Below, one piece after another: positions 16,303 to 52,497 of a DNA stretch of 64,000 bases (positions within the stretch are counted from its first letter, which is position 1; every line of letters begins with the position of its first letter). This stretch comes from Olivibacter sp. SDN3 (GTDB lineage: Bacteria > Bacteroidota > Bacteroidia > Sphingobacteriales > Sphingobacteriaceae): NCBI RefSeq assembly GCF_014334135.1, contig NZ_CP060497.1, positions 682,001-746,000 on the forward strand, read 5' to 3'. A program made the position numbers and the translations under genes. The notes under the pieces are model-generated. The model saw nothing but the letters and a program-made list of their open reading frames with translations. It made no database searches and was not told where the DNA came from.

Positions 16303-16367
16303 CTTATTGGTCTCTCCTCTGCCATTGAATATTTATTTAATAGAGGAAATATACGTAACTTAGCAGG

Positions 16368-20333: not shown

Positions 20334-20361
20334 TTTGCAAGATAAGTGTTAAACAATTAAT

Positions 20362-21489
20362 TTAATGGTGTTTTGCATTAAAATTATCTAATATCTGAGC
20401 AGGCATATCCTTTGAAATACCATAATATAACTTTTGACCCTGATGGTATTTTTCCTGTAGTTCGAAGTTCTCGAAGGAAGCTCCGCCGGGAATCTCCATA
20501 TAAAGGCTTTCGTCTCTACTTCCACCGCTCCAATATCTGTATCTTCCATTTACCCGTAGGTGTAAATTATTTTTGGGGTTCGGGTTTTCCTTTCTCCAAT
20601 ATTGTGTTAATTTGACAGATGGGCGATACCTCCAGCTTCTTCTGCGTTCGGCCAACGAATCCGTCGGCCAGTCCATCAATTCCTCCAATGATTCATTTGT
20701 TGTGGCAAAGGCAAAATAATCTCCACCCTTACTTTGTATGAGTGCATCGGCGGCATAGCTTTCTTTCTCAACAAAATCAATTCCTTTGTAATCGGTATAA
20801 AGCTTTCGGGCATCAATGATTTTATTTTTCAGATGTATCTGCCTTAATCTCGAATAGTTACCCATGGTTGCCGTAATATTACAGAAGTCCATTAACTCAC
20901 TATCTTCCCTATTAAATACTTCAACACAAATTTCCTCCGGTCGATCATTACGGATAGATAATCTTAAATAAGGGTGCGCTCCGGAAATAAACTTTTCCAA
21001 AAAAACATATACCGAAAGTTCTTCAATAGCCGGATTTTTAGGATCGGGACGAGAAATCACACCTCTACTATTCGCCATTGGCGAAAAACTTGTAGACGCT
21101 TCTTCATCACTCGCCCACATCAGTTTACCCCATTTCCCATCTACCATTGACGGAGAAATCTCACTAAACTCTATTTTTCCTTTTACTATGGGCTCAATAG
21201 CTAAAAAATTCAACAGGTATTTTTTCCCGTCGCGTTCAAAACCCATTCTTACCAATCCTCTAGGACCTCCACCATACCTGCTCTTTTCTGTCTCGATACC
21301 ATATGGCCATAAGGCAAATACAATCCCATTACGGATACCCCAAAGCGCGGCATCTTCAGCACTTTCCGGCCGAATCCACTGATTTGAAATTTCATGGTTT
21401 TGACCATAAATAGCTGTATTTGAAAACAACAATAGAACAACTATTGCATATGATCGAAAAAACCATTTCAACTTATAAAAATGCTGCAT
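20362..21489 (-). CDS. Secreted protein of unknown function (375 aa), glycan-locus orphan
   Basis: I do not recognise a named family. The N-terminus is a signal peptide (YAIVVLLLFSNTAIYGQ). The mature part is rich in beta-strand-like alternation and aromatic residues, with blocks GGPRGLVRMGFERDGKKYLLNFLAIEP, KLMWASDEEAS, HPYLRLSIRNDRPEEICVEVFNRED, and a C-terminal RVNGRYRYWSGGSRDESLYMEIPGG. The last block resembles a beta-sandwich glycan-binding edge. It lies 105 bp downstream of the 687-residue glycosidase-like gene and just upstream of a LacI gene. It is probably a periplasmic glycan-active or glycan-binding protein; this is inferred from context alone. Confidence 0.72.
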   Translation of the reverse strand: MQHFYKLKWFFRSYAIVVLLLFSNTAIYGQNHEISNQWIRPESAEDAALWGIRNGIVFALWPYGIETEKSRYGGGPRGLVRMGFERDGKKYLLNFLAIEPIVKGKIEFSEISPSMVDGKWGKLMWASDEEASTSFSPMANSRGVISRPDPKNPAIEELSVYVFLEKFISGAHPYLRLSIRNDRPEEICVEVFNREDSELMDFCNITATMGNYSRLRQIHLKNKIIDARKLYTDYKGIDFVEKESYAADALIQSKGGDYFAFATTNESLEELMDWPTDSLAERRRSWRYRPSVKLTQYWRKENPNPKNNLHLRVNGRYRYWSGGSRDESLYMEIPGGASFENFELQEKYHQGQKLYYGISKDMPAQILDNFNAKHH

Positions 21490-25850: not shown

Positions 25851-28472
25851 TTATGATATTAAATTCATTGGTTTACCGGACACGATTATCCGGGTCACGG
25901 GTATTTCTCCATGAAACACCTCCAGCTTTGGCCCATCTGCAGTTAAATGAACCGTTCCAAAACCTCCAGCCGTGGAGATAAACGATTTGAAATCACCCAC
26001 TTTGGAGTCGATATATAGTGTCTGATCAACTGCGTCGTAACGGATACCCGTTAAGCCTTGGATTAACCCATAACTAGACAAAGCTCTACCGTACCAGCTC
26101 CCACATTCATATTCGTTGAAAGGATTTCTTATCCGGCCATCATATCGATCTCGACAAGTACGCACAATTTCTAAACCCTGAGCTACTTCGCCTACCAATA
26201 ATAGATGGGACGCCACTTGATATTCAATACCTGTCCATACCTCGTCGCTATATACAAAGGGCAGAGAAAGTTTTCCTCCCTTTGGCCAGGTACACAACAG
26301 CAAACCTCCTTCTTTCCCCGCAGCGTAGGCAGGTCGTTGTGGGTTTGGATGATTAGAAAGATCTTTCTTCAAATTATACTGATGTATGGATAAGAGATGG
26401 CTTTTTACTTTTTCAGTTGACAAAATCTCCGGTAGGCCACAGACCTCTGCGATCCAAGCGCCTAAAACACCGTCAGACAGACAACCTTTGCCATATTGAT
26501 ATTTTGGCCCTTCTTTCTCCAGCAATTCCCGTGCTTCCGGGGAATATTCACCTCCATACGACTGTGCTTTGGCAGGATTTTCAGCATGCAAGTCCTTATA
26601 TTTTATTTCCTGTATGAAATACTCTCCATCGAAAAGCTTAGTTTCCATATAAACACGGCCTTTTTTATACAGTTTTCGATAAGCAGATACATTCTCCTTG
26701 AGATACTTCCCCATCTCTTGCGTAGCTACAAGCGCCCCTAAATAGAAAGAGGTACACATCCCATCAGGACCCCAAAATTCGATATCATAGGTATTATGAT
26801 GAGGCTCTTCCAATACTCCTTTTTCATCTGGATCCCAAGTGCGTATACAATAGTCCATACTTTTCTTCACCAATGGATACATATCCTTTAACCAGCCATC
26901 ATCTCCACTGATTCTCCATTCGCGATATACCTTCATGATGCCTCCCAACTGACCATCGGCTGCCGCATGGAAATCATGAATAGTAGGACTAATTGGAATA
27001 TTGGCGCGAAAATTCTGGTGGCCATCACTACTTTGGTTCTCACAAAATTCGGTATATCGGAGACTACGCTCCAATCTGGGAAACAGATGCGGAATCGCTT
27101 GTGCATAATTCCACACGTGGGTGCAGGATCCATGGCAGCAACCTGCCTCATCACTGCATCCTTCCCAATTCCATAATCTACCATCGTATTGACGCATCAC
27201 CGTTGGTGATTTTAGGATACTCAGATTCGCCGCGACCGCTTCCAACACTTCAGCCGGCAAACTACTTAAAAAAAAGGCTTCTTTAAAATTACGGGAAGAT
27301 TTTTGCAACTCTTCATAACTTGTTTGCCAATATTTTGCTACGTCTTGAACATCATCAAATTTGCTCGCATACCACGGTTTATAATAATAAAACGCTTCAT
27401 CTTTATTATTGCTATACTGTATTTGACCGGTATCACAAGATGGAGCAGCATCTTCAGCAGATTCGATCTTACCGATTTGTAACTTACTCTGTGGTACGTA
27501 CCAAGAAAAATAAACGCGTATAGTCTTACTCTCCTGAGCACCAAGGGTAAACGGAACATACAAAGATGCTCCCGGAGCGCCCTTTTCAATAGGATCGGTC
27601 TTTCTTGTTTTCCCGGCGCTTACCGTGTTCCAGGTAATGGTCACAGGGTCCCACCAACCACCTTGAAACCAGCAATAATCTACAATAGTTTTTGCTTCAT
27701 CTGTGTATACGGCAAAGTCTGCCTGCTCTTCTTTCTTGTCATCAGCCCCCGGCTGCCAAAGTATAAAACCATTATTCATGGCCTTCACAGATGCATGCTC
27801 GTTTGCGGCGAGAAAATTTTTGGCATGATAAGAAAATACCGCTTCTAAAGGCTGCGCTTGCGTATTGTGAAAGGTATATTCTATCGCACCTACAGGGAGG
27901 CTCGAATTATCCTCATCGTTCGGTATGAACGGGCTCCAGGCCGAAAGTCCCACAGCTAAAGGCCAGTCATCATCTGTTAATTCGGTAGTGCAAAAAGGAA
28001 AGCGTGCTTCGAAGGTAGCCTTTTTGAAACGTGGCAGGCCATAGGTGGCTCCAGAAGCGCCATTACCCGTTCCCCGTTGACCGAACAGCTTCCATTCAGG
28101 AACAGGCCCTTCTAATACTTTAGCACCATTTTGCATACCCTTTATCGCTACTGCGGCGAAAACATGCGGCTCATGAAACATTTGTGGTTTGTTCTGAACC
28201 GACATATGTGATATTGCCCCTGTACCTTCCAAACAGAACATCCCTGCTCCTATACCACCAATAGGGAATGCGATCCTATTCAGATGATTCCCTTTATAAG
28301 GAGCGTTGAAAGCCCTTTTATCAGTTTTGGGGTCTTCTGAATGGTCTAACGTTTGTTCGTCAAGATCCTTCTTAGGTTTGGAGGATGCAAAAAGTAAAGA
28401 CGGACTGGCCGTAGCTGCTGTACCAGCCAAGGTTAGGTTCCGAAGAAAGGCTCTTCTGGTATTGTTGTTCAT
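25851..28472 (-). CDS. Exported GH116-family (DUF608) glycoside hydrolase
   Basis: An 873-residue enzyme with a twin-arginine-like signal (NTRRAFLRNLTLAGTAATASPSL). The N-terminal beta-sandwich (FPIGGIGAGMFCLEGTGAIS, about 65-85) and the C-terminal catalytic alpha/alpha-barrel (CTHVWNYAQAIPHLFPRLERS; HNTYDIEFWGPDG with the likely acid/base Asp; YGKGCLSDGVLGAW; DEVWTGIEYQVASHLL) are those of GH116, the GBA2-related family. Known activities are beta-glucosidase, beta-xylosidase, N-acetylglucosaminidase and, in actinobacteria, exo-beta-D-arabinofuranosidase. It is flanked by an AraB-like kinase 34 bp upstream and the CobW-like gene 10 bp downstream. Context with GH172, FucI and AraB makes a D-arabinan-type substrate worth testing. 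Confidence 0.88.
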   Translation of the reverse strand: MNNNTRRAFLRNLTLAGTAATASPSLLFASSKPKKDLDEQTLDHSEDPKTDKRAFNAPYKGNHLNRIAFPIGGIGAGMFCLEGTGAISHMSVQNKPQMFHEPHVFAAVAIKGMQNGAKVLEGPVPEWKLFGQRGTGNGASGATYGLPRFKKATFEARFPFCTTELTDDDWPLAVGLSAWSPFIPNDEDNSSLPVGAIEYTFHNTQAQPLEAVFSYHAKNFLAANEHASVKAMNNGFILWQPGADDKKEEQADFAVYTDEAKTIVDYCWFQGGWWDPVTITWNTVSAGKTRKTDPIEKGAPGASLYVPFTLGAQESKTIRVYFSWYVPQSKLQIGKIESAEDAAPSCDTGQIQYSNNKDEAFYYYKPWYASKFDDVQDVAKYWQTSYEELQKSSRNFKEAFFLSSLPAEVLEAVAANLSILKSPTVMRQYDGRLWNWEGCSDEAGCCHGSCTHVWNYAQAIPHLFPRLERSLRYTEFCENQSSDGHQNFRANIPISPTIHDFHAAADGQLGGIMKVYREWRISGDDGWLKDMYPLVKKSMDYCIRTWDPDEKGVLEEPHHNTYDIEFWGPDGMCTSFYLGALVATQEMGKYLKENVSAYRKLYKKGRVYMETKLFDGEYFIQEIKYKDLHAENPAKAQSYGGEYSPEARELLEKEGPKYQYGKGCLSDGVLGAWIAEVCGLPEILSTEKVKSHLLSIHQYNLKKDLSNHPNPQRPAYAAGKEGGLLLCTWPKGGKLSLPFVYSDEVWTGIEYQVASHLLLVGEVAQGLEIVRTCRDRYDGRIRNPFNEYECGSWYGRALSSYGLIQGLTGIRYDAVDQTLYIDSKVGDFKSFISTAGGFGTVHLTADGPKLEVFHGEIPVTRIIVSGKPMNLIS

Positions 28473-28506: not shown

Positions 28507-30177
28507 TTATATTGAACTGGTTTCTAAAAAATCACCTAATTTTAAATATTGTTGATATCTTTTATCGTAATAAGCGGCCTTGCTTTTATCTGGAACATAA
28601 GACCGATCAAAACCGGTTCCCATGGCTTTCATCGCTTCTTCAACAGTTGGGTAAATACCTGCTACCGTTGCAGCAAACATGGCAGCACCCAAAGCGCAGG
28701 TTTGTTCCGATCGGTGTATTTTTAGCGGCATCTGCATAACATCTGCCAGCATCTGCATCACGAACGGTGATTTTTGGGCGATTCCTCCCACCCCTATCAG
28801 TCCTTTGATGGGCACTCCTTCTTCCTGAAAGCGTTCAACAATTTTACGAGCTCCAAAACACGTTGATTCCACAAGCGAACGAAATATCCGTGGAGCATCA
28901 CTGGCCAGTGTTAATCCACTAATTGCTCCTTTAAGCGACTGATCTGCATCCGGTGTTCTTCTGCCATTTAACCAGTCCAAGGCCAGCTCGTCGTGTTCTG
29001 ACGGGGCGATTGCGGCGGCCTGCTTGCTTAATTCATGCAACATGCGGTCACTGATATCTTTAAATAAGGCCCTGGATGCTTCATGATCAGTTTTATCGGA
29101 CTGCATCATAAGGTGTTGCAAGGGCCAAGAAAGCAATTGTTTAAACCATGCATATATATCACCAAAAGCGGATTGGCCTGCTTCCAACCCAATCATTCCC
29201 GGGATGATGGAGCCATCCACTTGTCCACAAATGCCTTTCACTATTTTTCCTTCAAATTCTTTTTTCGGAATGACCAGCATATCACAGGTAGATGTCCCCA
29301 TCACCTTACTTAAATAGTAAGGTTCAATCTGTCCGCCAACGGCTCCCATGTGGGCATCCATAGCCCCCACGCCAATCACTACATTGTCAGGCAAACCCAA
29401 CCTTTCCGCCCATTCTTTACTGAGGTAACCAGCCTGTTGATCAGCCGTGTACACCTGCTCCGGAAAAGTATCGTACACACTGGCTAATAAAGGGTCTAAA
29501 GAAGAGAAAAAATTCTTTGGAGGCAATCCATCGAAAGCCGTTGCCCATAAGCCCTTATGTCCGGCCGTACAAACGCTTCGCTTGAGTTCACGGACATGGC
29601 CACCACCTGTTAAGAGAAATGGGATCCAATCGCAATGCTCTACCCAGCTGTAACAAGCCTTCCGCACCTGCTGATCGTTCTTTAAGATATGAAGTAACTT
29701 TGCCCAATACCACTCTGATGAATAAATTCCCCCCACATATTTCAAGTAATCTTCACCAAATGCAGCAGCATGTTGATTGATCGCTGTTGCTTCCGGGACA
29801 GCAGTATGATCTTTCCACAGGACGAACATCGCATTCGGGTTAGCTTCAAATCCGGGCAATAAAGCCAACGGTGTTCCCGTTTCATCTACCGCTACCGGAG
29901 TCGACCCAGTGGTATCGACAGAGATGGCTTTGATATTCGTTCTAACAGCATTTCCTACTTGCGATAGGCATTTCTTTATGGTCTGTTCAAGCCCGTCTAT
30001 ATAATCCAACGGATGCTGTCTGAACTGGTTCTTATTGGGGTCACAGTATAGTCCGTCATTCCAACGGCTATACAGATGTACCGCAGCAGCTACCTCTTCT
30101 CCGGTATATGCATCAACGATGATCGACCGAACGGAATCTGTACCGAAATCTATTCCTATGCAATAATTAGTGTTCAT
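28507..30177 (-). CDS. araB: Ribulokinase (AraB-type FGGY kinase)
   Basis: A 556-residue FGGY sugar kinase that matches E. coli AraB along its length: IGIDFGTDSVRSIIVD, NPNAMFVLWKDHTAV, GGIYSSEWYWAKLLHI, GTSTCDMLV, VKGICGQVDGSIIPGMIGLEAGQSAFGDIYAWF, LDWLNGRRTPDADQ and GVGGIAQKSP. AraB phosphorylates L-ribulose and also D-ribulose. No araA or araD is in the window; instead the gene lies 36 bp after fucP and the FucI gene. FucI enzymes also interconvert D-arabinose and D-ribulose, so the pair could turn D-arabinose into D-ribulose-5-phosphate. A fuculokinase role is possible, but FucK is a different FGGY subgroup. Confidence 0.9.
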   Translation of the reverse strand: MNTNYCIGIDFGTDSVRSIIVDAYTGEEVAAAVHLYSRWNDGLYCDPNKNQFRQHPLDYIDGLEQTIKKCLSQVGNAVRTNIKAISVDTTGSTPVAVDETGTPLALLPGFEANPNAMFVLWKDHTAVPEATAINQHAAAFGEDYLKYVGGIYSSEWYWAKLLHILKNDQQVRKACYSWVEHCDWIPFLLTGGGHVRELKRSVCTAGHKGLWATAFDGLPPKNFFSSLDPLLASVYDTFPEQVYTADQQAGYLSKEWAERLGLPDNVVIGVGAMDAHMGAVGGQIEPYYLSKVMGTSTCDMLVIPKKEFEGKIVKGICGQVDGSIIPGMIGLEAGQSAFGDIYAWFKQLLSWPLQHLMMQSDKTDHEASRALFKDISDRMLHELSKQAAAIAPSEHDELALDWLNGRRTPDADQSLKGAISGLTLASDAPRIFRSLVESTCFGARKIVERFQEEGVPIKGLIGVGGIAQKSPFVMQMLADVMQMPLKIHRSEQTCALGAAMFAATVAGIYPTVEEAMKAMGTGFDRSYVPDKSKAAYYDKRYQQYLKLGDFLETSSI

Positions 30178-30213: not shown

Positions 30214-31560
30214 TCAATGATGATGTAAAACAATTTCATTTCCTGCGGCGGCTTTGCCTACGCCCCATATCGCATACCATGCAATGAAAGCAAAACATAG
30301 CATTGGGATGAAGAAAGCTACCGACATACTGGAATGATCCGCAATGACGCCCATGACCGGTGGACAAAATGCTCCTCCAGCTACTGCCATCACTAAAAAG
30401 GAAGATGCTTTCTTCGTCAGCGAACCCAATCCATGGATACCGAGAGCAAAAATTGTTGGGAACATGATCGACATAAAGAAATAGCATACAAATAACGCAA
30501 CCACAGACCCCCAACCGAGGGCCATAAATACAATTGCCATTAGCAATGTGTTTACTATAGCATATATAGCCAATAAGCGATGGGGACGGAAAAACTTCAT
30601 CATGTAAGCGCCCGATAAACGCCCTACCCAAAACAATCCCATTCCTCCTATGGCTAAAATTACAGATGCCGCCTGTTCTCCATTTTTGGGCATAAACACG
30701 GTTCCAAAATAACCCAGATGTTGCATCAGGTTGGCCACAGGCCCAGTCACATCAGGAATTTCTTCCGTCACATAATTAATAAAGAAGGAATTCACTCCGG
30801 TTTGTGCAGCAACGTAAAGAAACTGCGCAATCACTGCGGCTATGAATGCGGGGTGTTTCAGCAATCTACTCATTTTAGGATCGTCTTCCGATTCCTCCAC
30901 ACTTTTTTCTTCGATATCAGGTAGCTTTATTAACATGAATATAATCGCTACCACTACTACGATACATCCAACCCCCATATAAGGTTTAACTAAAGAATCG
31001 AACTTCTCTGCCCCTTCCTGCTGCTCCGCACCAAAAATAAATAACCCTCCCATTAAAGGCCCCAATATCCATCCTAACCCGTTAAATGACTGCGAGATAT
31101 TAATTCTTCTCGCTGCATATCGCCGCTCCTGCGATCCCAAAACCGTAGAATACGGATTCGCGGCCGTTTCCAGACATGCGAGACCACAGGCGATGACAAA
31201 CAAAGCCAGTAAAAAGGGAATAAATGCTTCAAACTTAGCTGCTGGATAAAACAGAAAAGAGCCTATGCTAAACAAGATCAATCCCAAGATAATTCCTTTC
31301 TGATACCCATAACGCTTCATAAAGAGCCCTGCCGGCACGGCCATGGCCAAATAACCGATATATAGGGAAAATTGCACAAAGCCCGACTGCGCTTTAGATA
31401 CACCCAGCGTGTCTTGAAAATGTTTATCAAGCACATCTAACAGACCATGTGCGAAGCCCCATAGCAAAAACAGGCTACAGATGAAAATAAAAGGGACGAT
31501 GTAATTCGTTCCATCCGCCGTTCTAAACAGCGATCCCGTTTTCTTTTTACTCATGAACAC
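30214..31560 (-). CDS. fucP: FucP-type L-fucose:proton symporter (MFS), copy 1
   Basis: A 448-residue, 12-helix MFS transporter of the FucP family. Marks are FLLWGFAHGLLDVLDKHFQ in helix 1 (Asp in the proton/sugar site region), GLACLETAANPYSTVLG in helix 4 (conserved Glu), INISQSFNGLGWILGP, and FMSIMFPTIFALGIHGLG. FucP imports L-fucose and, in E. coli, also D-arabinose and related sugars. The ORF begins MFMSKK; the third-codon Met is an equally good start. It begins 2 bp after the fucI stop and precedes araB, so isomerase, permease and kinase form one unit. A second FucP-type permease with the same MFMSKK start is at 47431-48699. Confidence 0.93.
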   Translation of the reverse strand: MFMSKKKTGSLFRTADGTNYIVPFIFICSLFLLWGFAHGLLDVLDKHFQDTLGVSKAQSGFVQFSLYIGYLAMAVPAGLFMKRYGYQKGIILGLILFSIGSFLFYPAAKFEAFIPFLLALFVIACGLACLETAANPYSTVLGSQERRYAARRINISQSFNGLGWILGPLMGGLFIFGAEQQEGAEKFDSLVKPYMGVGCIVVVVAIIFMLIKLPDIEEKSVEESEDDPKMSRLLKHPAFIAAVIAQFLYVAAQTGVNSFFINYVTEEIPDVTGPVANLMQHLGYFGTVFMPKNGEQAASVILAIGGMGLFWVGRLSGAYMMKFFRPHRLLAIYAIVNTLLMAIVFMALGWGSVVALFVCYFFMSIMFPTIFALGIHGLGSLTKKASSFLVMAVAGGAFCPPVMGVIADHSSMSVAFFIPMLCFAFIAWYAIWGVGKAAAGNEIVLHHH

Positions 31561-31562
31561 AT

Positions 31563-33326
31563 TTATTTATATATAGGTCCGTAACTTTCACAGGCACGAT
31601 AATCTGCTCCTTCACTGTCCATACCAAAAGCATTCCAAGCTGATGGTCTAAAAATGCGTTCTTCTTCTACATTATGCATGCAGATCGGGATGCGCAACAT
31701 TGCTGCCAGTGTGATTAAATCTCCTCCAATATGACCATAACTAATAGCGCCATGATTTGACCCCCAGGCGCCCATTACCGAGTAAACGTCGCGGAAGGGG
31801 CCTTCTCCCGTCACTTTAGGCACAAACCAAGTGGTGGGCCAAGTAGGATCCGTACGCTCGTCCAATAGCTTATTCACTTCTTCAGGAAGCTCCACTGTCC
31901 AGCCTTCAGCTAGCTGCAAAACCGGTCCTACCCCTTTTATCAGATTTATTCGGCACATCGTTACAGGCAGTCCTCCTGCTGTTAGAAATTTAGAAGAATA
32001 CCCTCCCCCACGGAAATAATCCAGGTTTGCGGGATGCCAACTGGTAGCGCCTAAACACGACCCCACTTCGCTATCTGTTATTTCCCAAAAGGGTTTCATG
32101 GCCGGTTCTCCTTCCTGCTGTTGTCTGCCCGTGCCATCCAAGGTAGCGGCGCCCGAATTGATTAAGTGGATAAATCCATTCTGAGCGATTCCTTCAGGTT
32201 TCCACCCAGAAACCCGTTCAACCGCATCAGGGCTCCAAAAAGTACGTACATCTGCAAAAATCTGTGCAGTATTTGTCAGTAAATAGTTGAATAACATGGA
32301 TACCCCATTCAATGAATCATTTTCAGTGGCCACGATATAAGGTGCCCGTTTACCATTCCAATCGAATGAAGAGTTTAATATAGCTTCGGAGAAATCGCCG
32401 TTAGGGAGAAAGTCAGTCCACTGCCGCTGGCCTTGAAAGCCAGAAACGAGGGCATGGTGTCCATACGCCTCCTCAGCGTAACCCATATCTTTCAATTTTT
32501 TATTCCCGATCATGAGATCACGGATAATGATGGTCATTTTTACCACAAACTCCCAGTCTTTATCTTTATCTGCTCTCGACTTTATTTTTGCTGACGCGTT
32601 GTAGTCCTTCCCTTCCTTACAATGTTTTTTCACCCAAGCGTGCGCCTTTTCATATTCTTCCTGATCATAGATTCCCAATTGAATACGCCTCAGCACCTCA
32701 GAAGAATCTACATATTCATTACGCATCCCCAAGTAAGTCTGGAAAAAATCGGCATCCACAATAGAGCCTACAATGCCCATGGATACCGAACCAATTGCTA
32801 AATACGATTGTCCACGCATGATGGCTACAGCCAGTCCTGCCCGGGCAAAACGCAACAATTTTCCTTTCACATCGTCTGGAATAGCTCTATCGCCCATATC
32901 CTGTACATCTTCTCCATAGATGCCAAAGGCCGGTAATCCCTTTTGATTATGAGCCGCGAGTGTAGCCGCCAGATAAACAGCTCCCGGCCTTTCGGTTCCA
33001 TTAAATCCCCAAATTGCCTTTGGTATCAACGGGTTCATATCCATAGTTTCCGAGCCATAACACCAGCACGGTGTGACGGATAAAGACACCCCTACATTTG
33101 CTGTTTCAAATTTCTCTGCGCAGTCAGCGGCCTCTTTTACACCTCCTATGCAAGTATCGGCAATGACGCACTGTACAGGGCTTCCATCCGGATAACGGAG
33201 GGTTGACTGGAACAATTCGGCTACATCATGGGCCATATTCATGGTCGTTTCTTCCAATGATTCTCTTATTCCGCCTAAGCGCCCATCTATGATCGGCCTA
33301 ATGCCTATTTTAGGATATTTCTTCAT
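31563..33326 (-). CDS. fucI: L-fucose isomerase (also D-arabinose isomerase)
   Basis: A 587-residue cytoplasmic Mn-dependent ketol isomerase, the usual FucI length. The N-terminus [19 protein letters not shown] and [28 protein letters not shown] are characteristic, as are the active-site blocks [17 protein letters not shown] and [13 protein letters not shown] with the metal-ligand Glu and Asp. FucI enzymes convert L-fucose to L-fuculose and D-arabinose to D-ribulose. No fuculose-1-phosphate aldolase gene is visible, but an AraB ribulokinase is two genes downstream. The gene starts 73 bp after the DUF6786-like lipoprotein and runs directly into fucP. Confidence 0.96.
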
Positions 33327-33399: not shown

Positions 33400-34644
33400 C
33401 TATTTAAGCACCACTTCGTCCAACGAAGCTCCCAATACCTGCTGACAGATCTTATCCAAGACGTTTTCATCACCCACGAAATGAAATACGCTATGATGAT
33501 GTACCATTTCTTCCCGAGGTTTCAAAAATGCAGCAGGTGAAACACTTTCTATCTCGTAAAAGGGCCCCATCTGACTGCCATCTGCCAGCGGTCCGTCATT
33601 GTACGCGTTCATGGCATCTCCGGTAAACGGATCCTTTGTAGGTGTCCATTCCTGATTCAGGTAAGTCGCTTTTGGATCCACATCAAACAGTGTTATAGTA
33701 AGCACCTTGGTGTCAGCGGCGTAACTCCCCGCAACAGGTTTTACCCTATTGGGGGGAATCCCCAATTTTCCACGTGATTTGCCGTCCGCTTTGAATAACA
33801 ATGTTCCATTTCTGTAAGTAATACGATCTTCGGGAATTTCACCAAAATAATCTGTCGTTGCCACCTTACCCGATCTATTCTCATGATATGGAACGATAAT
33901 AACCGTTTCCGGAGAAGGAGTAAACATATCCAAACTCCATAAACAAGGCGCACCCGTTTGTTTATCCCACGCTTGTTCACCATTATTCATCAGCGTATTA
34001 ACCGTTCTGAAACCAACGGTTTTTACTTGCCCGTCTAAGTCGATATCGAGTGCCTTTTCAATTTCGTCATTTTCGAGGATTGCTATCTGCCTTTTAAGCC
34101 TGATTTGCAAACGGGTACCGGTATAATTCGTAATTTCAAGTTCTTTACTCAAATTAGCTTGCTTTGCTGTTGCTGAATGCAAGGTCCATTCTTCTGCATC
34201 GATAGCAGGTGGCGTATACCAATTTTCAAACTCCATGGTCGTCCCGGGCTGAAAAAAGAGGGAAAATTTACCCCCTTCCGGCCCTAACCACAGTCGGTCT
34301 TCCCCACCATAAGCGTTCATATGCTCATCCTGCTTATCAAAAGCATCGTAATTAATCCATCCAAAACTCAGCCCCTCCTCACCTTCTGCCGTAGAAGTAA
34401 AAACTTTTGCCTGATATTTAGGCGACACAACAACTTTGCCGTCCCCTTGTGTATTTTGCAATACCACAAGGCTGTCTTTTTTCTTTAAAAAGGCCAAATC
34501 GTAGCCAAAAGAACCTTTATTGTAGCTATCCATTTCCTGACTTTCTTCCTGTTGCGTTACATTTGATCGATCGCTTGCAGATTGGCAACCGCTCCATAAA
34601 ATGGTTGCTATCAAAAACGATCTTATGACATTTGTACTTATCAT
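33400..34644 (-). CDS. DUF6786-like lipoprotein
   Basis: A 414-residue protein with a lipobox at LWSGC (Cys20). The mature sequence has SFGWINYDAF, MNAYGGEDRLWLGPEGGKFSLFF, a segment resembling galactose-mutarotase-like beta-sandwiches (FRTVNTLMNNG), and a C-terminal GPFYEIESVSPA block. I recall this layout from proteins annotated DUF6786; no function is established. The overall look is of an aldose-epimerase-type fold. It sits 40 bp after the GH172 gene and before fucI, so a periplasmic role acting on the released sugar, for example anomer exchange or binding, is possible but speculative. Confidence 0.68.
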   Translation of the reverse strand: MISTNVIRSFLIATILWSGCQSASDRSNVTQQEESQEMDSYNKGSFGYDLAFLKKKDSLVVLQNTQGDGKVVVSPKYQAKVFTSTAEGEEGLSFGWINYDAFDKQDEHMNAYGGEDRLWLGPEGGKFSLFFQPGTTMEFENWYTPPAIDAEEWTLHSATAKQANLSKELEITNYTGTRLQIRLKRQIAILENDEIEKALDIDLDGQVKTVGFRTVNTLMNNGEQAWDKQTGAPCLWSLDMFTPSPETVIIVPYHENRSGKVATTDYFGEIPEDRITYRNGTLLFKADGKSRGKLGIPPNRVKPVAGSYAADTKVLTITLFDVDPKATYLNQEWTPTKDPFTGDAMNAYNDGPLADGSQMGPFYEIESVSPAAFLKPREEMVHHHSVFHFVGDENVLDKICQQVLGASLDEVVLK

Positions 34645-34684: not shown

Positions 34685-35875
34685 TTAATTCACTTCCAGA
34701 TCATCTTTTTCCGGCAAGGCAGGGAAACGGGCATGTGGCTCACGTTGGTACCAAAAAGCAACCGTGATGATATCCGATTTTTGCGGTAGGTACCTCCCCT
34801 CAGATCGCCATCCCAAATCCTGAATGGTTACCTTCAAATCGCCATCGAAACGAACAGGATCCATGATATGCCAACGATACATGCCGAAGCGCTGCTGCGA
34901 TTGATACACGCCATCTGGCCGAATGACTTGATGCAACCCTGCATAGGCCGTAGAGAACTCTTCGTATTGCCGCGTTTTTTTATTTTCAAAATTGTAGGAT
35001 CCACAGAAATAATCCTCCAGGCCTGTTCCCACGATTGTAGCAAAATCTTTATCGCCATCCATAAAGAATTTTATCTCCCCTTCTCCCCACCAACCCACAT
35101 TATTTACCCCCACTCCCATCATGGTACCTACATAATGGCCTTTTCCTTTTACGCCATCCAGTATCGTATGCAAAGAGGTCGAATTGGGGTTTGATCTTCT
35201 ATATTGCGCATGTAAATAAGCTTCTTCTTCTCCAACCTCCGTTAAGGTATAATCTACCTGATAATAGAGGTTCATAGGTTCTGAGTTTATATTCTCAACA
35301 GTAATTTTACATTTTTTCCGAAAAGGCATCTTCCAATAGCAATTGAAAGCACTCCCCGGATTAACCGTTATTGCCAAAGAGTTAAGAGGCGCATAGTCAT
35401 TCCAAGGCATACCGAAAAACGCACCCACGGGTGCTTCAATGGATGGTTCCGTTTCATCATCCCAATAGAAACGGATAATTGAGTAACTCCAATTGCCCGT
35501 GGGAGTCATCCATATATGCTGAACGGCCCCGGGGCCCTCCATTTCGGCTATGGTAAAAGTCTCCCCGCCTTCAATTGTTATAAATGGATTTACTTTCCAG
35601 CCTACCCCTAAATCTCTGGCAGCATGAGCCGCATTCGCCACATTTCGCTGGTCAGCTTGTTTTGCCGGATCGGCCATGCCGCCTTTTCCTTTCTCTCCGG
35701 TAAAGTTTTCAGGGCTTATCGAGCGGGTTTTGGCATCCGACAGTTTTGAAAGGTTGCCCATATTCATATCTAAGCCGTCGAAAGACCCAGTTTTCTGCGC
35801 ATAAGCAAAGTAGCCAACAAATAGCATCGCGGCCATTGCAATTGTTCTTTTCATCATTTTACTTTTATGGTTCAT
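34685..35875 (-). CDS. Secreted GH172-family (DUF2961) protein
   Basis: A 396-residue protein with a signal peptide (RTIAMAAMLFVGYFAYAQ); ATGs at codons 7 and 8 are alternative starts. The double jelly-roll GH172 core is clear: GAVQHIWMTPTGNWSYSIIRFYWD, FFGMPWNDYAPLNS, and NVGWWGEGEIKFFMDGD with Glu265/Glu267, then GTGLEDYF with Glu287. The paired glutamates match the reported catalytic acids. Characterised members are alpha-D-arabinofuranosidases acting on mycobacterial D-arabinan and difructose-dianhydride enzymes. The gene has its own leader with a perfect copy of the 16-bp operator-like site found before susC at 41417. It precedes DUF6786 and fucI. Confidence 0.88.
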   Translation of the reverse strand: MNHKSKMMKRTIAMAAMLFVGYFAYAQKTGSFDGLDMNMGNLSKLSDAKTRSISPENFTGEKGKGGMADPAKQADQRNVANAAHAARDLGVGWKVNPFITIEGGETFTIAEMEGPGAVQHIWMTPTGNWSYSIIRFYWDDETEPSIEAPVGAFFGMPWNDYAPLNSLAITVNPGSAFNCYWKMPFRKKCKITVENINSEPMNLYYQVDYTLTEVGEEEAYLHAQYRRSNPNSTSLHTILDGVKGKGHYVGTMMGVGVNNVGWWGEGEIKFFMDGDKDFATIVGTGLEDYFCGSYNFENKKTRQYEEFSTAYAGLHQVIRPDGVYQSQQRFGMYRWHIMDPVRFDGDLKVTIQDLGWRSEGRYLPQKSDIITVAFWYQREPHARFPALPEKDDLEVN

Positions 35876-35948
35876 GTTTTTTTAGTTTATAAATCGGCGT
35901 CGCGCACGGTTTCAGGATTGATCCATGCATTTCTTATTACAATGATAC

Positions 35949-35964
35949 GCTTAATCGTTTAAAC
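35949..35964. promoter_or_regulatory. LacI-type operator-like site upstream of GH172
   Basis: The site gcttaatcgtttaaac is identical to the one at 41468-41483 upstream of susC and lies about 75 bp before the GH172 start. The near-symmetrical GCTTAAwCG / TTTAAGC pattern with a central CG resembles LacI-family operators. Confidence 0.6.
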
Positions 35965-36013
35965 AAACAATAATTCCATTTCATTTTTTGTATCATTTCT
36001 TCTACAATCCGTT

Positions 36014-36436
36014 TCATGGGCTCTGATAAACGACCGTTTGACCAAGAGAGTATATGCTACTGGAATAATTCGGGTCTCTCTCTTTCGTTTGACCAAAGAG
36101 CTTAACTGTCAAATGGTATGTTTTATTTTCTTCAGGAACTTCATAAACGAATTCCGTAGGTGCATTAGCCAATGTAGTATTAAAAACCGATGTTGTTCGG
36201 GTTGGACCCAATATTTCCTGTACATCGATGTATATACTAACCGGTTGTTCAATACTTTCCGGTATATTGACTGGGATTTCCCATGTTAACCGAACGGTGG
36301 CCCCATCTTGTTGTACCGACAAGTTATTTACCGTAGGTAAGCTATCGCCTTCTTTACGGTCTATCATTTCTCTGTCTATACAGGCGTGCATTGCCAATAC
36401 GACAGCCAATAGGTATATAAAAGTTATTCTCTTCAT
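36014..36436 (-). CDS. Small fibronectin-III-like lipoprotein (SusE/F position)
   Basis: The start is set at the internal Met of MKRITFIYLL because a lipoprotein signal follows directly (VVLAMHAC, Cys19); a Met six codons earlier is possible. The mature 120 residues look like one fibronectin type III domain: PTVNNLSVQQDGATVRLTWEIP, a middle strand YIDVQEILG, and TYHLTVKLFGQ. Such short lipoproteins after susD are probably surface glycan-binding or assembly partners. It starts 32 bp after susD. It is unrelated to the DUF3823 proteins that fill the same position in the other two triplets. Confidence 0.75.
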   Translation of the reverse strand: MKRITFIYLLAVVLAMHACIDREMIDRKEGDSLPTVNNLSVQQDGATVRLTWEIPVNIPESIEQPVSIYIDVQEILGPTRTTSVFNTTLANAPTEFVYEVPEENKTYHLTVKLFGQTKERDPNYSSSIYSLGQTVVYQSP

Positions 36437-36468
36437 TTGGTTTGTTTTTAACATTACCGATTGATTCT

Positions 36469-38217
36469 CTAGTATCCCGGATTTTGCTGATAAGCCCCTC
36501 TAGACCAGTTCATTTGTGCCTGTGGTATAGGTAAGAATTCATCTCTCCCGGCGGTAAAACGACCTTGGTTATACCAATCAAAGCGCGTCCGCTCTTTATT
36601 GATGAAAGCATTCATTACCGACTCCAGCAATCCCCAACGCATAAGATCAAAAAAGCGTCGACCTTCCATAGCAAACTCCAAGCGGTTCTCCCATATCAAC
36701 GCCTCCCAGGCAAAATCTTTGGTCCAATTACAATTCAATCCAGGTTGATAAGTTTCCGCCCTATAGTCCATCCACAAACTTCCGTCAGGTTTCTGTAATC
36801 GCGGTGTGCTATTGGCAGCACGCGTCCTCACCCGGTTAATCAACGGCAGCGCCTCATTAAACCGATCGAGCTGAATTAATATTTCTGCTTTCCAAAGCAA
36901 CACTTCAGCGTAACGAATAGCCTTTTCATTCAGTGCATTCATTACATAAAAGGGTCGAAAAATACAGTCACAATCGGGATGAACCTGCTCTTTTAATGAG
37001 TTAAAATATCCGTATTGAAAAGGTGCTCGGGATCCCGATTCTTCATATAAAAGATCATTATCATATTTAAAAGGGTAGCCCGGGATAGCTGCCGTATGAC
37101 TTAATCTTGGATCAAATGCATGATCCTGAAAATACGCTTCGTATTGCGAGCCGGTCATTTCTGTATCATTATAATTCACAAAATCTGGCAGCCCGGTTTC
37201 GTCCGTTTTGAAAGCATTGATCATGGTATGCGAAACCTTATTGAAATCGCAACAGGTAAAATAAGGTGACCACCAAGGGGCATTCAGTTCATTTCCACGG
37301 TTAATACGGCCATCGGTTGTGCCGTCATCTATGGAATACTGGATTTCCCAAAGTGACTCCTTGGTATTATTATCAAAATCAATCATGAAATTATCTCCGA
37401 AATCAGGCTGTAAATCAAACTGGGCTCCGTCTTGTGCCATTACTGCATCGACATGGATTAAAGCCCTATTTAATGTTTCCTGGTTGATATTAATCACCTG
37501 ATGTCGGTCGTTCTGTTCATAAGCCCTAAATAGCAAGGCTTTTGCCGCTAAAGCATGCGCTGCATATTTGGTAGGCCGGCCCCTTTCGGCTTGTGTCTCC
37601 GGCAAAGCAGCAGCGGCATCTTCAAAATTTTGGATAATCCAATCCCATATTGGAAGATCATTCGCCATATCATCCGGACGATTAGGGATTTGCTCTACCA
37701 CCGCAGCATCGGTTGGCGTATTTTCGTCAATAATGGGAATATATTTCCACCGAAGTTTCATTCCGAGGTAAATCCATCCTCTTAAAAACTTCATTTCGGC
37801 AATACGTTGTTCTTTCATCGCAAATTCGGCTTCCTCTACCGTATTTAGCAAACGCAAAGCTGTATTGGCTCTACTAATGCCCACATAACCTCTGTACCAA
37901 GGCCCATCATTATTGCCTACATTCGGATTTACCCTTGTAAAGATTTCCATTTCATACCAGGGTGTTTGGTCATTCAAGCCCCCACCTCCTTTATAAGCGT
38001 CATCTGAACGTACACTTTGTATCCATGGATTATGCGTATCGCCAAATCCGAGCGACGGCATATGCGAGTACGCCGCTATTACGAAACTTTCCAACTGTTC
38101 CGGTTCTTCGGCCTGCGATTCGGAGAGCACGCCCTTAGGGTTCACTTCCAAAAAGTTTTGGCACCCTGTGACTAACAATAATAGGAACGATAGGTATTTA
38201 ATCTTATAGCTATTCAT
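36469..38217 (-). CDS. SusD/RagB-family nutrient-binding outer-membrane lipoprotein, copy 3
   Basis: The start is placed at MNSYKIKYLS because a lipobox follows (LLVTGC, Cys19); an ATG three codons earlier also exists. The 582-residue product has SusD helices (MKFLRGWIYLGMKLRWKYIPII) and the C-terminal ENRLEFAMEGRRFFDLMRW signature, ending QMNWSRGAYQQNPGY. It follows susC within about 12 bp and precedes the fibronectin-like lipoprotein. It is not closely similar to the SusD proteins at 2214 and 8439, so this pair probably handles a different glycan. Confidence 0.95.
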   Translation of the reverse strand: MNSYKIKYLSFLLLLVTGCQNFLEVNPKGVLSESQAEEPEQLESFVIAAYSHMPSLGFGDTHNPWIQSVRSDDAYKGGGGLNDQTPWYEMEIFTRVNPNVGNNDGPWYRGYVGISRANTALRLLNTVEEAEFAMKEQRIAEMKFLRGWIYLGMKLRWKYIPIIDENTPTDAAVVEQIPNRPDDMANDLPIWDWIIQNFEDAAAALPETQAERGRPTKYAAHALAAKALLFRAYEQNDRHQVININQETLNRALIHVDAVMAQDGAQFDLQPDFGDNFMIDFDNNTKESLWEIQYSIDDGTTDGRINRGNELNAPWWSPYFTCCDFNKVSHTMINAFKTDETGLPDFVNYNDTEMTGSQYEAYFQDHAFDPRLSHTAAIPGYPFKYDNDLLYEESGSRAPFQYGYFNSLKEQVHPDCDCIFRPFYVMNALNEKAIRYAEVLLWKAEILIQLDRFNEALPLINRVRTRAANSTPRLQKPDGSLWMDYRAETYQPGLNCNWTKDFAWEALIWENRLEFAMEGRRFFDLMRWGLLESVMNAFINKERTRFDWYNQGRFTAGRDEFLPIPQAQMNWSRGAYQQNPGY

Positions 38218-38228
38218 AACGGTCAATT

Positions 38229-41200
38229 TTAAAAAGTTACATTTACTCCTACGAACATTGTCCTGGGCATTGGATATCCTGTCCCTGGGTTTTCAGGGTC
38301 GCCTCCAGTAAACTGATCATCACCCCAGAATTTTTTGATCATAAATAGATTCTGCGCGGAAGCATATAACCTGAGTCGGGTCATCTTCAATCGATCTGCC
38401 AATTGTTGCGGAAAATTATAGCCAATATCCAGTGTACGTAATTTTATATACGAGCCATTTTCAATGAAATAGGTCGATAGCCGCTTTTCGCCATTGGCAT
38501 CACCACGTGACAATGCAGGAATATCAGAATTGGGATTTTGCGGTGTCCAGGCATCCAAAATGCGAGCCGGGTGGTTGCGATCATTCTGCACACCGATATT
38601 CCAAAAATCACTTAACTCCTTCCAGGTATTATGCACCTGATTGCCAAAGACCCCTTGCAAAAAGAACATAATATCAAAATTCTTGTAACGTGCTTCGAAG
38701 TTTAAGCCCGCCATCAGGTCAGGGTCGCTCACCCCTATCCAGGTTCTATCGTATACTTCGTTGATGACACCATCCCCATCTAAATCTTTATAGCGTATAC
38801 GCCCCACCCCCTTTCCCGCTTGTTGGGCTGAATTATCCACTTCCTCCTGAGTTCTAAAAATGCCATCGGCTACTAGTCCATAGAAAGAATTTAGGGGTCG
38901 ACCAATGATATCATCTAACAGCCCGTTACCTCCGTAGTTAAATTTCACATTATCCGGTACCGAGTTGATCTGGTTCTTAAAAGCCGAAAGATTAGTGGTA
39001 ATCGTGTATGAAAAATCGTTTTTGGTATCTCCCCAGGTTAAAAGAAATTCCCAACCTTTATTGGTCATATCCGCCGCGTTCACCCAACGATATCCTCCCT
39101 CTCCAAGTGCAGCAATATATGGCGGTTCAAAGAGCATATCCGTTGTTTTTTTATTGAACCAATCAAAGGATCCCGACAAGCGATTATCCAAGAAAGCAAA
39201 ATCAAGCCCAATGTTAGTCTGTGTCGTGGTTTCCCACCTTAAGTCGGGGTTGCCCAAACTATTTCTTCGATAACCGGATGGAATACTTCCAGATGGATTA
39301 CCTCCTATAGCGTAAGAAGTACCATTAACATCTGGAACGTAGATATTCACCAAGCGGCCGACGTCCAGGGGTGCCGAATTCCCATTCTGTCCCCAGCTTG
39401 CTCTGATTTTTAAGTCGTTCAGGAAATCAACTTCCTTTAAAAAATTCTCCTCTTTTAATCGCCAGCCCGCAGAGAAGGCCGGGAATGTACCAAAGCGATT
39501 GTTTTCTCCAAATACCGAGGCTCCATCCCGACGGAAAGTAGCAGAAAATAAATATTTGGAACCAAAGGAATAGTTGATTTTACCAAAATAAGAAAGTATA
39601 CTGCGTTCATCACCACCTCCGTTTAACTCTCTCCTTTCTCCTGTGGCCGTAGATAGGTAAGCATAGTCGCGATCTTCAAGCAAAATATCTTCCCTATAAG
39701 CGTCGAAGCTCTCATTGATGAAGCGATAAGCCTCCATTCCTCCGAGCATATCAATTTGGTGTTCACCTAGGCGAAGGTTGTATATCAACGTATTGGTCCA
39801 GGTTTGACCGATATCATGCCAGTTGTTCTGTGTTACCCCGTTCAGGCTGTTACTTTTTCCGCCCGCTTCTTCCCATCTACGTTGAATGGTTCGATCATAC
39901 CACATGCTATAGTCAACCCCGTACTGCGTTTTAAAGCTTAGGTTGTCTAAAATTTTCAGATCGGCATAAGCTGTACCCAATACTTTCATGAAATTTGGAA
40001 CATTATCCTTGTTCATCATCAGCCCACGAATAGGGTTATTAAAATCATCCATTCCCAGTGGCATGGCAACACCTCCCCAACCGCCGAGATTGTCATAAAC
40101 CGGAATGTTCGGCGGCATCACCAAAAATTCGTAAGTACTGTTTACGTCGCGCATTCTAAGGTTGGTAAGCGTTAAATTCTCACCAATGGTTAAGCGGCCA
40201 TCAAGCAATTTGTATTCGTTATTAAATCGAGCCGCAAGGCGTCTAAAGAAAGAGGTAATCTGTGTACCTTGATTATTATAATAATTAAGGGAGAATAAAC
40301 TCGTAGATTTCTCCCCTCCACCGGTTATCGTTAACTGGTGATTTTGCTGAATCCCTGTACGGGTTCCCTCCTTAAACCAATTGGTATTGGTTGATGGCAG
40401 CGTTTGTGCATCATTCAGCCACGCTAAAGGGCTCACACTATTGAGCACAGGTACACCATTACTATCATAATTCCAATCGTAATTATAAAAGCGAATGGAC
40501 CCCGGATCATTTCCGTCATTTACCGTAGCCTGCCAAAGTGCACGGCCATAACCTTCGGCATCTAACATGCGGGGAACACCATTGATTTTAGAAGCCCCAA
40601 CATACGCTTCATAAGTTACCTGCGTTCCTCCTTGCCTACCTTTTCTGGTGTTCACCAAGATTACACCACCGGCAGCGCGCGCGCCATATATAGAAGCGGA
40701 CGCCGCATCTTTTAATACTTGAATCGATTCAATATCGTTCGGGTTGATATCCCGTAAATTAATGGTTACCGGTTGACCGTCTAATACAACCAGCGCAGGA
40801 GCCGAATTTAGAGAGGTTACACCTCTTACTTGGATACCTACGTTCTCCGCGGGATTGCCGTCTGTTGTGATTCTAACCCCGGGGATCTTACCTTGCAGGG
40901 AACGCATCACATTGGCGCTGGGATTCTTCACAAAGTCCTCCCGCTTGACCATACTTACGGCTCCCGTAAGATCGGCCTTTTTTTGCGTCATGTACCCCGT
41001 AGAGACCACCACTTCTTCCAGCGCCGTATTGTCGTTTAGCAATTGTACATAATAGGTGTTCGCAGCGGTTAACGGTTGCTCGTTTGTTGCTTTACCTATA
41101 TAGGTAAAAATAATATGGGTTGCAGCGAGGGGCAGCTCCAAAACGAACTGTCCCAAAGAGTCGGTTTGAGCACTATGCGTACCACCCTTTGCTCTAACAC

Positions 41201-41417
41201 TCACTCCATTTAGTTTTTCCCCCAACTCGTCGGTTACTGTACCCGTAATTTTCCTTGTCTGCTGTGATGTCTGTGCCATTGCGGAAGAAGCAGCTAGCAG
41301 ATTATAAATCATAAAAAGGATAAAAGACAAGGCACCAAGCATTTTTGGGATCTTTTTTCTTCCTCTACCGTATCTTTTCCATACTACGTAGAACTTCTTT
41401 AAGAAAGTTGATTTCAT
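38229..41417 (-). CDS. SusC/RagA TonB-linked outer-membrane transporter, copy 3
   Basis: A 1062-residue SusC. After a basic N-terminus, the signal is ALSFILFMIYNLLAASSAMAQ (about residues 29-49). Then come the carboxypeptidase-regulatory-like domain (RKITGTVTDELGEKLNGVSV), EEVVVSTGYMTQKKADLTGA, the plug (LQGKIPGVRITTDGNPAENVGIQVRG, VLKDAASASIYGARAAGG) and the barrel ending TMFVGVNVTF. It heads the large minus-strand locus that includes GH172, FucI, AraB and GH116. Its 450-bp leader carries three LacI-operator-like sites, the densest cluster in the window, so this promoter is probably tightly controlled. Confidence 0.95.
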   Translation of the reverse strand: MKSTFLKKFYVVWKRYGRGRKKIPKMLGALSFILFMIYNLLAASSAMAQTSQQTRKITGTVTDELGEKLNGVSVRAKGGTHSAQTDSLGQFVLELPLAATHIIFTYIGKATNEQPLTAANTYYVQLLNDNTALEEVVVSTGYMTQKKADLTGAVSMVKREDFVKNPSANVMRSLQGKIPGVRITTDGNPAENVGIQVRGVTSLNSAPALVVLDGQPVTINLRDINPNDIESIQVLKDAASASIYGARAAGGVILVNTRKGRQGGTQVTYEAYVGASKINGVPRMLDAEGYGRALWQATVNDGNDPGSIRFYNYDWNYDSNGVPVLNSVSPLAWLNDAQTLPSTNTNWFKEGTRTGIQQNHQLTITGGGEKSTSLFSLNYYNNQGTQITSFFRRLAARFNNEYKLLDGRLTIGENLTLTNLRMRDVNSTYEFLVMPPNIPVYDNLGGWGGVAMPLGMDDFNNPIRGLMMNKDNVPNFMKVLGTAYADLKILDNLSFKTQYGVDYSMWYDRTIQRRWEEAGGKSNSLNGVTQNNWHDIGQTWTNTLIYNLRLGEHQIDMLGGMEAYRFINESFDAYREDILLEDRDYAYLSTATGERRELNGGGDERSILSYFGKINYSFGSKYLFSATFRRDGASVFGENNRFGTFPAFSAGWRLKEENFLKEVDFLNDLKIRASWGQNGNSAPLDVGRLVNIYVPDVNGTSYAIGGNPSGSIPSGYRRNSLGNPDLRWETTTQTNIGLDFAFLDNRLSGSFDWFNKKTTDMLFEPPYIAALGEGGYRWVNAADMTNKGWEFLLTWGDTKNDFSYTITTNLSAFKNQINSVPDNVKFNYGGNGLLDDIIGRPLNSFYGLVADGIFRTQEEVDNSAQQAGKGVGRIRYKDLDGDGVINEVYDRTWIGVSDPDLMAGLNFEARYKNFDIMFFLQGVFGNQVHNTWKELSDFWNIGVQNDRNHPARILDAWTPQNPNSDIPALSRGDANGEKRLSTYFIENGSYIKLRTLDIGYNFPQQLADRLKMTRLRLYASAQNLFMIKKFWGDDQFTGGDPENPGTGYPMPRTMFVGVNVTF

Positions 41418-41467
41418 TTTTCATTTTTTGGTTAATGGTTAGTAATTAGTAACGCGTTACGAAACAC

Positions 41468-41483
41468 GCTTAATCGTTTAAAC
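41468..41483. promoter_or_regulatory. Operator-like site 1 upstream of susC (gcttaatcgtttaaac)
   Basis: A 16-bp near-palindrome with central CG, 51 bp before the susC start and identical to the site at 35949-35964. It is probably a LacI-family binding site. Confidence 0.58.
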
Positions 41484-41597
41484 AATTAGGTTGTAAAAAC
41501 ACTTCATGTCATTTTTTTGATCTTTCTTTTTTTGATTTTGTTGATTTTATGCTAATTTTTAACTATCCTCCACTTGTAAAAGCTTTCGTATTATGTA

Positions 41598-41613
41598 GTT
41601 TAATCGTTTAAGC
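41598..41613. promoter_or_regulatory. Operator-like site 2 upstream of susC (gtttaatcgtttaagc)
   Basis: It differs from site 1 at one base in each flank and keeps the TTAATCGTTTAA core. It lies just downstream of the possible -7 element at 41624-41631, a position suited to repression. Confidence 0.58.
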
Positions 41614-41623
41614 AAGCTGTTTA

Positions 41624-41652
41624 CAAAAATACTGTCTCACAGGATTAGCAAA
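41624..41652 (-). promoter_or_regulatory. Possible Bacteroidota-type promoter of susC
   Basis: On the minus strand TATTTTTG (41631-41624) fits the TAnnTTTG -7 consensus, and TTTG (41652-41649) lies 17 bp further upstream, slightly short for the -33 element. The 5' leader would be about 200 bp. Confidence 0.3.
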
Positions 41653-41690
41653 GAAAAAATTGGTATTGGTTTATAATAGTACAATTATAA

Positions 41691-41706
41691 GCTTAATCGG
41701 TTAAGC
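41691..41706. promoter_or_regulatory. Operator-like site 3 upstream of susC (gcttaatcggttaagc)
   Basis: The most symmetrical copy, with perfect 6-bp arms GCTTAA/TTAAGC around TCGG. With sites at 41468 and 41598 it gives three operators over 240 bp, which could support DNA looping. Confidence 0.6.
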
Positions 41707-41804
41707 AAACAAATTTATCCATCGATTTTTTATATCAAATATTCAACAAATTGTATCACACATGCAGCACACACGTTTAATAGACGATCTTAAAGGGGTT
41801 TGTA

Positions 41805-52158: not shown

Positions 52159-52497
52159 ATTTTATTTTTCACATCAAATGCACTGTTTCAATAGGTTAAA
52201 AAATATTATAGGTAAATATTATATTTCCTTTTTAATATTCAGGTTAAATTTACATTTTTTCCGATGTTTCAAACATCAGTTTTCGTATATAACTATATCA
52301 CCAATGCAATATGAGGTATTTTATAACGGTTCTTTTTTATACAATAATAGCCATCTCTCTACAATTTATTAACGGCTTTCCCATAAAAATTAACGACAAC
52401 GATGTCGTAGAAAAATTGAAAAACATTTGCCATAAGTTTAAAAAACATATTAAAACCTCGTTATTTTGAAGCATTATTTACAAACCTATCTGCTACT
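52159..52497. promoter_or_regulatory. Divergent promoter region with two palindromes
   Basis: A 339-bp AT-rich gap between the Gfo/Idh-like gene and LacI paralogue B, with no gene. It contains gatgtttcaaacatc (52263-52277, 7-bp arms around one base) and acgacaacgatgtcgt (52393-52408, 6-bp arms around ACGA). The latter has the central-CG geometry of LacI operators and lies 90 bp before the lacI start. Confidence 0.5.

Follow-up and report, generated by a model that had tools for sequence, protein, structure and literature searches.

Local sugar repressors of the LacI/GalR family combine a helix-turn-helix (HTH) with a sugar-binding domain, and their usual operator is an even palindrome with a central CG (PMC4052901, in the part of that survey drawn on here). 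In Dysgonomonas gadei, the D-arabinan polysaccharide-utilisation locus PUL42 carries GH172 exo-D-arabinofuranosidases (GH172 corresponding to DUF2961; PMC10115798), a fucose isomerase that is abundant on D-arabinan and a putative GH116 enzyme (excerpts of PMC10115798 and PMC10509167). The L-arabinose regulon of Bacteroides is governed by AraR, a regulator of the NrtR family (PMC4666351, in part). Here we describe, in a 64,000-nucleotide stretch of the Olivibacter sp. SDN3 genome (contig NZ_CP060497.1, positions 682,001 to 746,000; hereafter the window), a predicted regulon in which a LacI-type protein, LacI_B, would in all likelihood repress a susC gene and a GH172 gene by occluding their promoters and be released by a D-arabinose- or L-fucose-type sugar. 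No account of this regulon was listed in searches of a library of open-access papers, judged by titles and the beginnings of abstracts.

The locus resembles the LacI/GalR repressors of PMC4052901 in its HTH and sugar-binding domain, its 16-bp even CG palindrome, its local catabolic targets and its tandem sites. It departs from them, as far as the excerpt of that survey goes, in its half-site, GCTTAAnC, and in an operator that fills the predicted spacer between the -33 and -7 elements of a Bacteroidota promoter. GH172, fucose isomerase and GH116 are common to this locus and to PUL42 as partly described in PMC10115798 and PMC10509167. A local sugar-responsive regulator, a Bacteroidota arabinose locus and a comparative-genomic basis are shared with the Bacteroides AraR system, but AraR belongs to another regulator family, has a 21-bp motif (PMC4666351, same portion) and is relevant to only one of the sites described below. 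The regulon is a well-supported case of a familiar class: a clean, ordinary sugar regulon.

The exact 16-mer GCTTAATCGTTTAAAC occurs at 35949-35964 and 41468-41483, as an earlier note on this DNA had reported, and these are its sole occurrences in the 6.12-Mb genome; the variants placed by the same note at 41598-41613 and 41691-41706, further upstream of susC, are present with two mismatches. On the gene strand, which is the reverse strand throughout the locus, the sites read GTTTAAACGATTAAGC (35949 and 41468), GCTTAAACGATTAAAC (41598) and GCTTAACCGATTAAGC (41691), and all four are imperfect palindromes with a CG centre. We refer to 35949-35964 as the predicted GH172 promoter operator and to 41691-41706 as O1, the predicted susC promoter operator; downstream of O1 there are two putative auxiliary operators, of which O2 (41598-41613), at a distance of 93 bp, falls in the predicted susC leader and O3 (41468-41483), at 223 bp, precedes the susC ATG by 51 bp. 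A window search for GCTTAATCGTTTAAAC with up to three mismatches returned 8 matches, including single places counted on both strands, against a mean of 1.06 in 100 shuffles, none of which reached 8. In its strict form the motif is not scattered at random over the genome: the degenerate form RYTTAAHCGDTTAARY, composed only after the sites had been seen, matches without mismatch at five places in 6.12 Mb, four of which are the window sites. Looser searches lose this contrast, with 8 genome-wide matches to GCTTAATCGTTTAAAC at up to two mismatches versus 7 for a backward control, and 29 places for RYTTAAHCGDTTAARY at up to one mismatch versus 23, so that the weaker RYTTAAHCGDTTAARY matches are background.

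A position matrix trained on the best site of 77 loci, all outside Olivibacter (the 80 LacI_B-related loci introduced below, minus two Olivibacter loci and one locus, L124, that has no site at two mismatches), places the same four sites at the top of the window: 41468, 35949 and 41598 with 25.3 each, followed by 41691 with 23.2. The next score, 10.5, falls at 59665. In 20 first-order random 64-kb sequences the maxima ranged from 3.4 to 20.1, nine of them above 10.5, and the four sites score above every one. The four sites are a real finding. The further members that the earlier note had listed at 59665, 13575 (-0.8) and 7447 (-5.2) are unsupported, since their held-out scores do not stand out from the random maxima, and we rejected them as LacI_B targets. 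Before the susC-like gene at 10287-13517, positions 13573-13665 hold three related imperfect CG-centred sequences with ends TTAGCAA or ATAGCAA, possibly operators of another LacI. The promoters of this gene and of the gene at 56404-59547 may have other operators, but none could be established, the sole palindrome noted being one upstream of the LacI gene at 52498, in four Olivibacter genomes.

The placement of the sites relative to promoter elements is a further line of evidence. In Bacteroidota promoters of the sigma-ABfr type, TAnnTTTG represents the -7 element, with TTTG at about -33 (PMC7366714, in the section consulted here). On both strands of the 80 loci, 51 of 186 sites have a TAnnTTTG that begins 17 bases after the operator starts (offset +17), one base beyond its end, against a mean of 0.34 at 44 other offsets and a background expectation of 0.12. 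Two of the window sites, 35949 and 41691, are predicted to fill such a spacer. Specifically, the putative -7 box of the GH172 promoter, TATCATTG (35940-35947), starts one base after the operator and is one letter off TAnnTTTG, with a TTG at 35968-35970, 20 bases upstream of the box, as a possible -33 element; the putative box of the susC promoter, TATAATTG (41682-41689), is likewise one letter off, and a TTTG 20 bases upstream of it, at 41710-41713, is again a possible -33 element. Transcription is predicted to start at about 41677 for susC and about 35935 for GH172. At 41598 and 41468 there is no -7 box at +17. A relaxed composite, TTAANCGNTTAANNNTANNNTTG, matches without mismatch at two places genome-wide, both of them the window promoters, and at three more with one mismatch; its backward control has one match. 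Several observations weaken this prediction: the window boxes read TAnnATTG, and the form TAnnnTTG adds just one site elsewhere (52 versus 51 of 186); TTAANCGNTTAANNNTANNNTTG was composed after the window had been seen; and the strict TTTG composite occurs in 1 of 120 relatives and in no Olivibacter genome.

That the repeat arose by chance or is mobile, with no regulatory function, is highly improbable. Identity of two copies across all 16 bp would suit such an origin, but when the two promoters are aligned their flanks differ while the operator and the adjoining boxes are conserved, and in many genera the motif is again found next to genes of the LacI_B type.

A second operator downstream of the promoter operator is a recurrent feature, at 88-100 bp in Pedobacter and Olivibacter and at 155-197 bp in Dyadobacter, unlike the 13-, 22- and 32-bp peaks given in the available part of PMC4052901. 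Among 45 neighbouring pairs within 320 bp, we applied a Rayleigh test to the 35 that are 78-199 bp apart, leaving aside 4 shorter and 6 longer ones. Over distinct distances R was 0.38 at 10.5 bp versus 0.40 at 9.5 and 10.75, and restriction to distances below 140 bp gave 0.76 at 10.5 and 0.77 at 10.25; helical phasing was set aside and no period is claimed. The E. coli LacI protein has a tetramerisation tail. The alignment of LacI_B with CcpA, RbsR and PurR runs to the ends of these proteins and leaves five residues over, so that a tail of the E. coli type seems absent and looping is unproven.

LacI_B (19314-20333) is very probably the regulator, and the predicted repressor of all four sites. 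It is composed of a LacI HTH (PF00356, 44.4 bits, cut-off 27) and a periplasmic-binding-protein-like domain (PF00532, 83.8; PF13377, 80.4), which fits the LacI/GalR family, as do the even CG-centred palindromes near the target starts by the definition in the excerpted PMC4052901. It falls below the cut-offs of all 21 NCBIfam families listed for it, among the named equivalogs RbsR, CcpA, PurR, Cra and others, the best being NF047341 RbsR with 225 bits versus a cut-off of 382. The earlier note had proposed LacI_B as the nearest candidate. As regulator it holds up, through co-occurrence with the motif in other genomes; as the nearest gene to the susC sites it does not, the LacI at 52498 (LacI_C) being about 11 kb from them and LacI_B about 21 kb. 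To the GH172 site the distances are about 15.6 kb for LacI_B and 16.5 kb for LacI_C. LacI_B is preferred because of this co-occurrence and not because of nearness.

The co-occurrence was assessed in the best 80 of 431 loci from a scan of a genome collection, whose LacI proteins are 54-76% identical to LacI_B. The pattern GCTTAANCGNTTAAGC is found with up to two mismatches in 78 of the 80 loci (169 sites, 123 of them within 400 bp of the LacI gene) and with up to one mismatch in 65. Two shape controls each match in 4 of 80; a third, centre-swapped control, GCTTAANGCNTTAAGC, matches in 27 but is not clean, because it is only two letters from the true motif. In 68 of the 80 loci the LacI gene has a site scoring at least 14 within 1.5 kb; the same is true of none of 30 loci of the LacI_C/A type, 10 of which are at least 48% identical to LacI_C and the other 20 about 36-40%. 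Among the proteins first aligned, 8 of 10 share the recognition helix STALVSYV, whereas the helices of LacI_A (the window LacI at 16368) and LacI_C read SVSTVSKA and SISTVSKA.

These comparisons bear on whether another LacI reads the sites, be it the one at 16368, the one at 52498 or another of the genome's 17 LacI-type genes, which we consider very unlikely. LacI_C is the closest to the susC sites in distance, LacI-family operators resemble one another (16 bp, CG centre), a further LacI gene of this genome (L014) is preceded by a related site, ACTTAAACGATTACGT, with a score of 12.7, and in the window LacI_B lacks a good site close by. Against this reading stands the absence of score-14 sites from the LacI_C/A-type loci and equally from nine further entries of the LacI_A search (0 of 9, some being the same genes). 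Nor do the 80 loci contain any homologue of LacI_A or LacI_C that reaches 40%. LacI_C moreover has palindromes of its own, of the type ACGAYAACG, about 100 bp upstream in four Olivibacter genomes. The window copy, ACGACAACGATGTCGT at 52393-52408, with similar ones in three other Olivibacter genomes, is a possible LacI_C operator. An inverted repeat at 16256-16307 (19-nt arms, 89% complementary, 14 nt apart) was observed in the intergenic region that separates the divergent ThuA and LacI_A genes.

Assignment of the sites to LacI_B must also be weighed against several features of the data. The recognition-helix peptide GVS[TV]ALVSY was one of the two search patterns behind the 80 loci, so that the set is partly selected for like DNA reading, and some of the loci share one genome or come from sister strains. 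All 80 loci reach score 14, but this count is circular because the matrix was trained on those loci, and the plain pattern at up to two mismatches matches 2 of the 30 LacI_C/A-type loci. In the window strain no good site lies within 1.5 kb of LacI_B, the one at 20347-20362 being degenerate (score -4.3), although two Olivibacter relatives, G004 and G001, have a good one; indeed, all 17 LacI-type genes of the genome, with LacI_B among them, lack a score-14 site within that distance. Finally, a site within 1.5 kb is found at 4 of 8 of the closest LacI_B loci and at 2 of 22 more distant ones.

Related genomes extend the association. G001 and G004, of the same genus as the window strain, keep most of the locus, with GH172 and LacI_B each preceded by one site and susC by three, providing counterparts of the GH172 operator, O2 and O3; O1 is identical in the three Olivibacter genomes, and in an alignment of their susC promoters the longest invariant run covers it. 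The earlier view of susC as the main target is thus borne out, it being the most heavily marked gene, with three sites here and in the two other Olivibacter genomes fetched. The palindrome GTAACGCGTTAC (41449-41460) was set aside, as it was not seen in the G004 and G001 promoters. In the other two members of the genus, G002 and G003, no match to LacI_B exceeds 38%. Two genomes of other genera, G041 and G019, hold LacI_B together with GH172, DUF6786, FucI, FucP and ribulokinase, with sites before GH172 that score 18.0-25.5; neither LacI_A nor LacI_C was found in the stretches fetched from them. In a Chitinophaga locus (L106), LacI_B accompanies GH172, an aldehyde dehydrogenase (scoring far below every named cut-off), a short-chain dehydrogenase/reductase (SDR) of the fucose-dehydrogenase type, a UxaA-type dehydratase and a gene of the FAA-hydrolase family, a set that would fit oxidative pentose breakdown. 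Enolase-superfamily sugar-acid dehydratases are among the neighbours in one Dyadobacter and one Spirosoma locus.

The genes behind the sites are read leftwards on the reverse strand and are presumably co-transcribed. The three susC sites precede susC (38229-41417), susD (36469-38226) and a DUF4945 protein (36014-36454). The 35949 site precedes GH172 (34685-35875; PF11175), a DUF6786 protein (33400-34644), the L-fucose isomerase FucI (31563-33326; TIGR01089, 1055 bits, cut-off 850), a FucP-type sugar:H+ symporter (30214-31560; TIGR00885, 337 bits, cut-off 280), an AraB-type ribulokinase (28507-30177; TIGR01234, 607 bits, cut-off 583; 65% identical to AraB of the L-arabinose operon) and a GH116 glycosidase (25851-28472), with further genes down to LacI_B and a GH29 fucosidase. 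The same strand also carries, upstream of susC, genes for an oxidative route of the L-fucose type: a fucose dehydrogenase (above its cut-off), a lactonase-like gene (below its cut-off), an FAA hydrolase, an SDR, a UxaA-type dehydratase and a second FucP. A search for a terminator ahead of the susC promoter found none.

The LacI regulon joining GH172 and susC that the earlier note had proposed is supported at the level of sequence. With no sugar present, a LacI_B dimer would sit in the -33/-7 spacers of the susC (O1) and GH172 (35949) promoters and keep RNA polymerase off, and O2 and O3, downstream of the predicted susC start, may strengthen repression by cooperative binding, as a roadblock or by looping. 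The inducer would be a sugar from the locus, probably D-arabinose or else L-fucose, which resembles it, or the first intermediate of either; its binding would release LacI_B and turn on both promoters, leading to outer-membrane uptake by SusCD and to breakdown through GH172/GH116, FucP, FucI and ribulokinase. Induction may also raise the repressor, because the LacI_B gene shares the strand of the gene run and sits near its end. Alternatively, LacI_B could be an activator or a global regulator of the catabolite type, as its closest solved chains by sequence, CcpA proteins and then RbsR and PurR, might suggest; we judge this very unlikely, given that operators placed either in a predicted -33/-7 spacer or past the start fit repression and that there are only five strict sites genome-wide.

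Repression by LacI_B would still leave a choice of inducers. FucI also acts as a D-arabinose isomerase. In terms of gene content, the pairing of FucI with an AraB-type kinase suits D-arabinose more than L-fucose, and a fuculose aldolase was not among the families found in general scans of the window. Conversely, the GH29 fucosidase and the fucose dehydrogenase route would speak for L-fucose. Against a single answer, 45 of the 80 loci contain none of nine catabolic genes checked, so that the inducer may differ between clades. D-arabinan itself was considered as substrate and not retained: GH172, GH116, FucI and ribulokinase would fit, but the D-arabinan set (GH172, GH183, GH116, isomerase and kinase) is incomplete, because, unlike in PUL42 as far as it is described in the excerpts of PMC10115798 and PMC10509167, the locus has no DUF4185/GH183. 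The only two DUF4185 matches of the genome, adjacent GH183-type genes (L207:9137-11577), are about 1.5 Mb away with no strict operator nearby. We therefore limit the claim to a D-arabinose- or L-fucose-type sugar.

The fifth strict site of the genome, ACTTAATCGTTTAAAC (G000:1010778; L206:10778-10793; score 21.7), lies between an AraR-like NrtR regulator and the susC of an L-arabinan/L-arabinose locus, and has no -7 box at +17. G001 and G004 share it, whereas G003 and G002 lack it, a distribution that follows that of LacI_B but is confounded, because G003 and G002 have no such susC within 1.5 kb of the AraR-like gene. The susC of this locus (L206:7649-10667) is split over two overlapping frames; the part of it seen in G001 is in one frame. 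Tentatively, and with the odds somewhat against it, LacI_B may represent a phylum-wide Bacteroidota group of D-arabinose/D-arabinonate-type repressors, with one operator, a fixed placement in the promoter spacer and often a second operator downstream, whose Olivibacter regulon reaches the L-arabinan locus through the fifth site. If so, the scavenging of D- and L-arabinose would be coupled in Olivibacter.

For a Bacteroidota polysaccharide-utilisation locus, our results name a probable repressor and its operator, predict where the promoters lie, and make fragments available for testing as a sugar-inducible promoter. The combination of operator and promoter box may provide a transferable rule by which targets can be predicted in Pedobacter, Chitinophaga, Dyadobacter, Spirosoma and Olivibacter.

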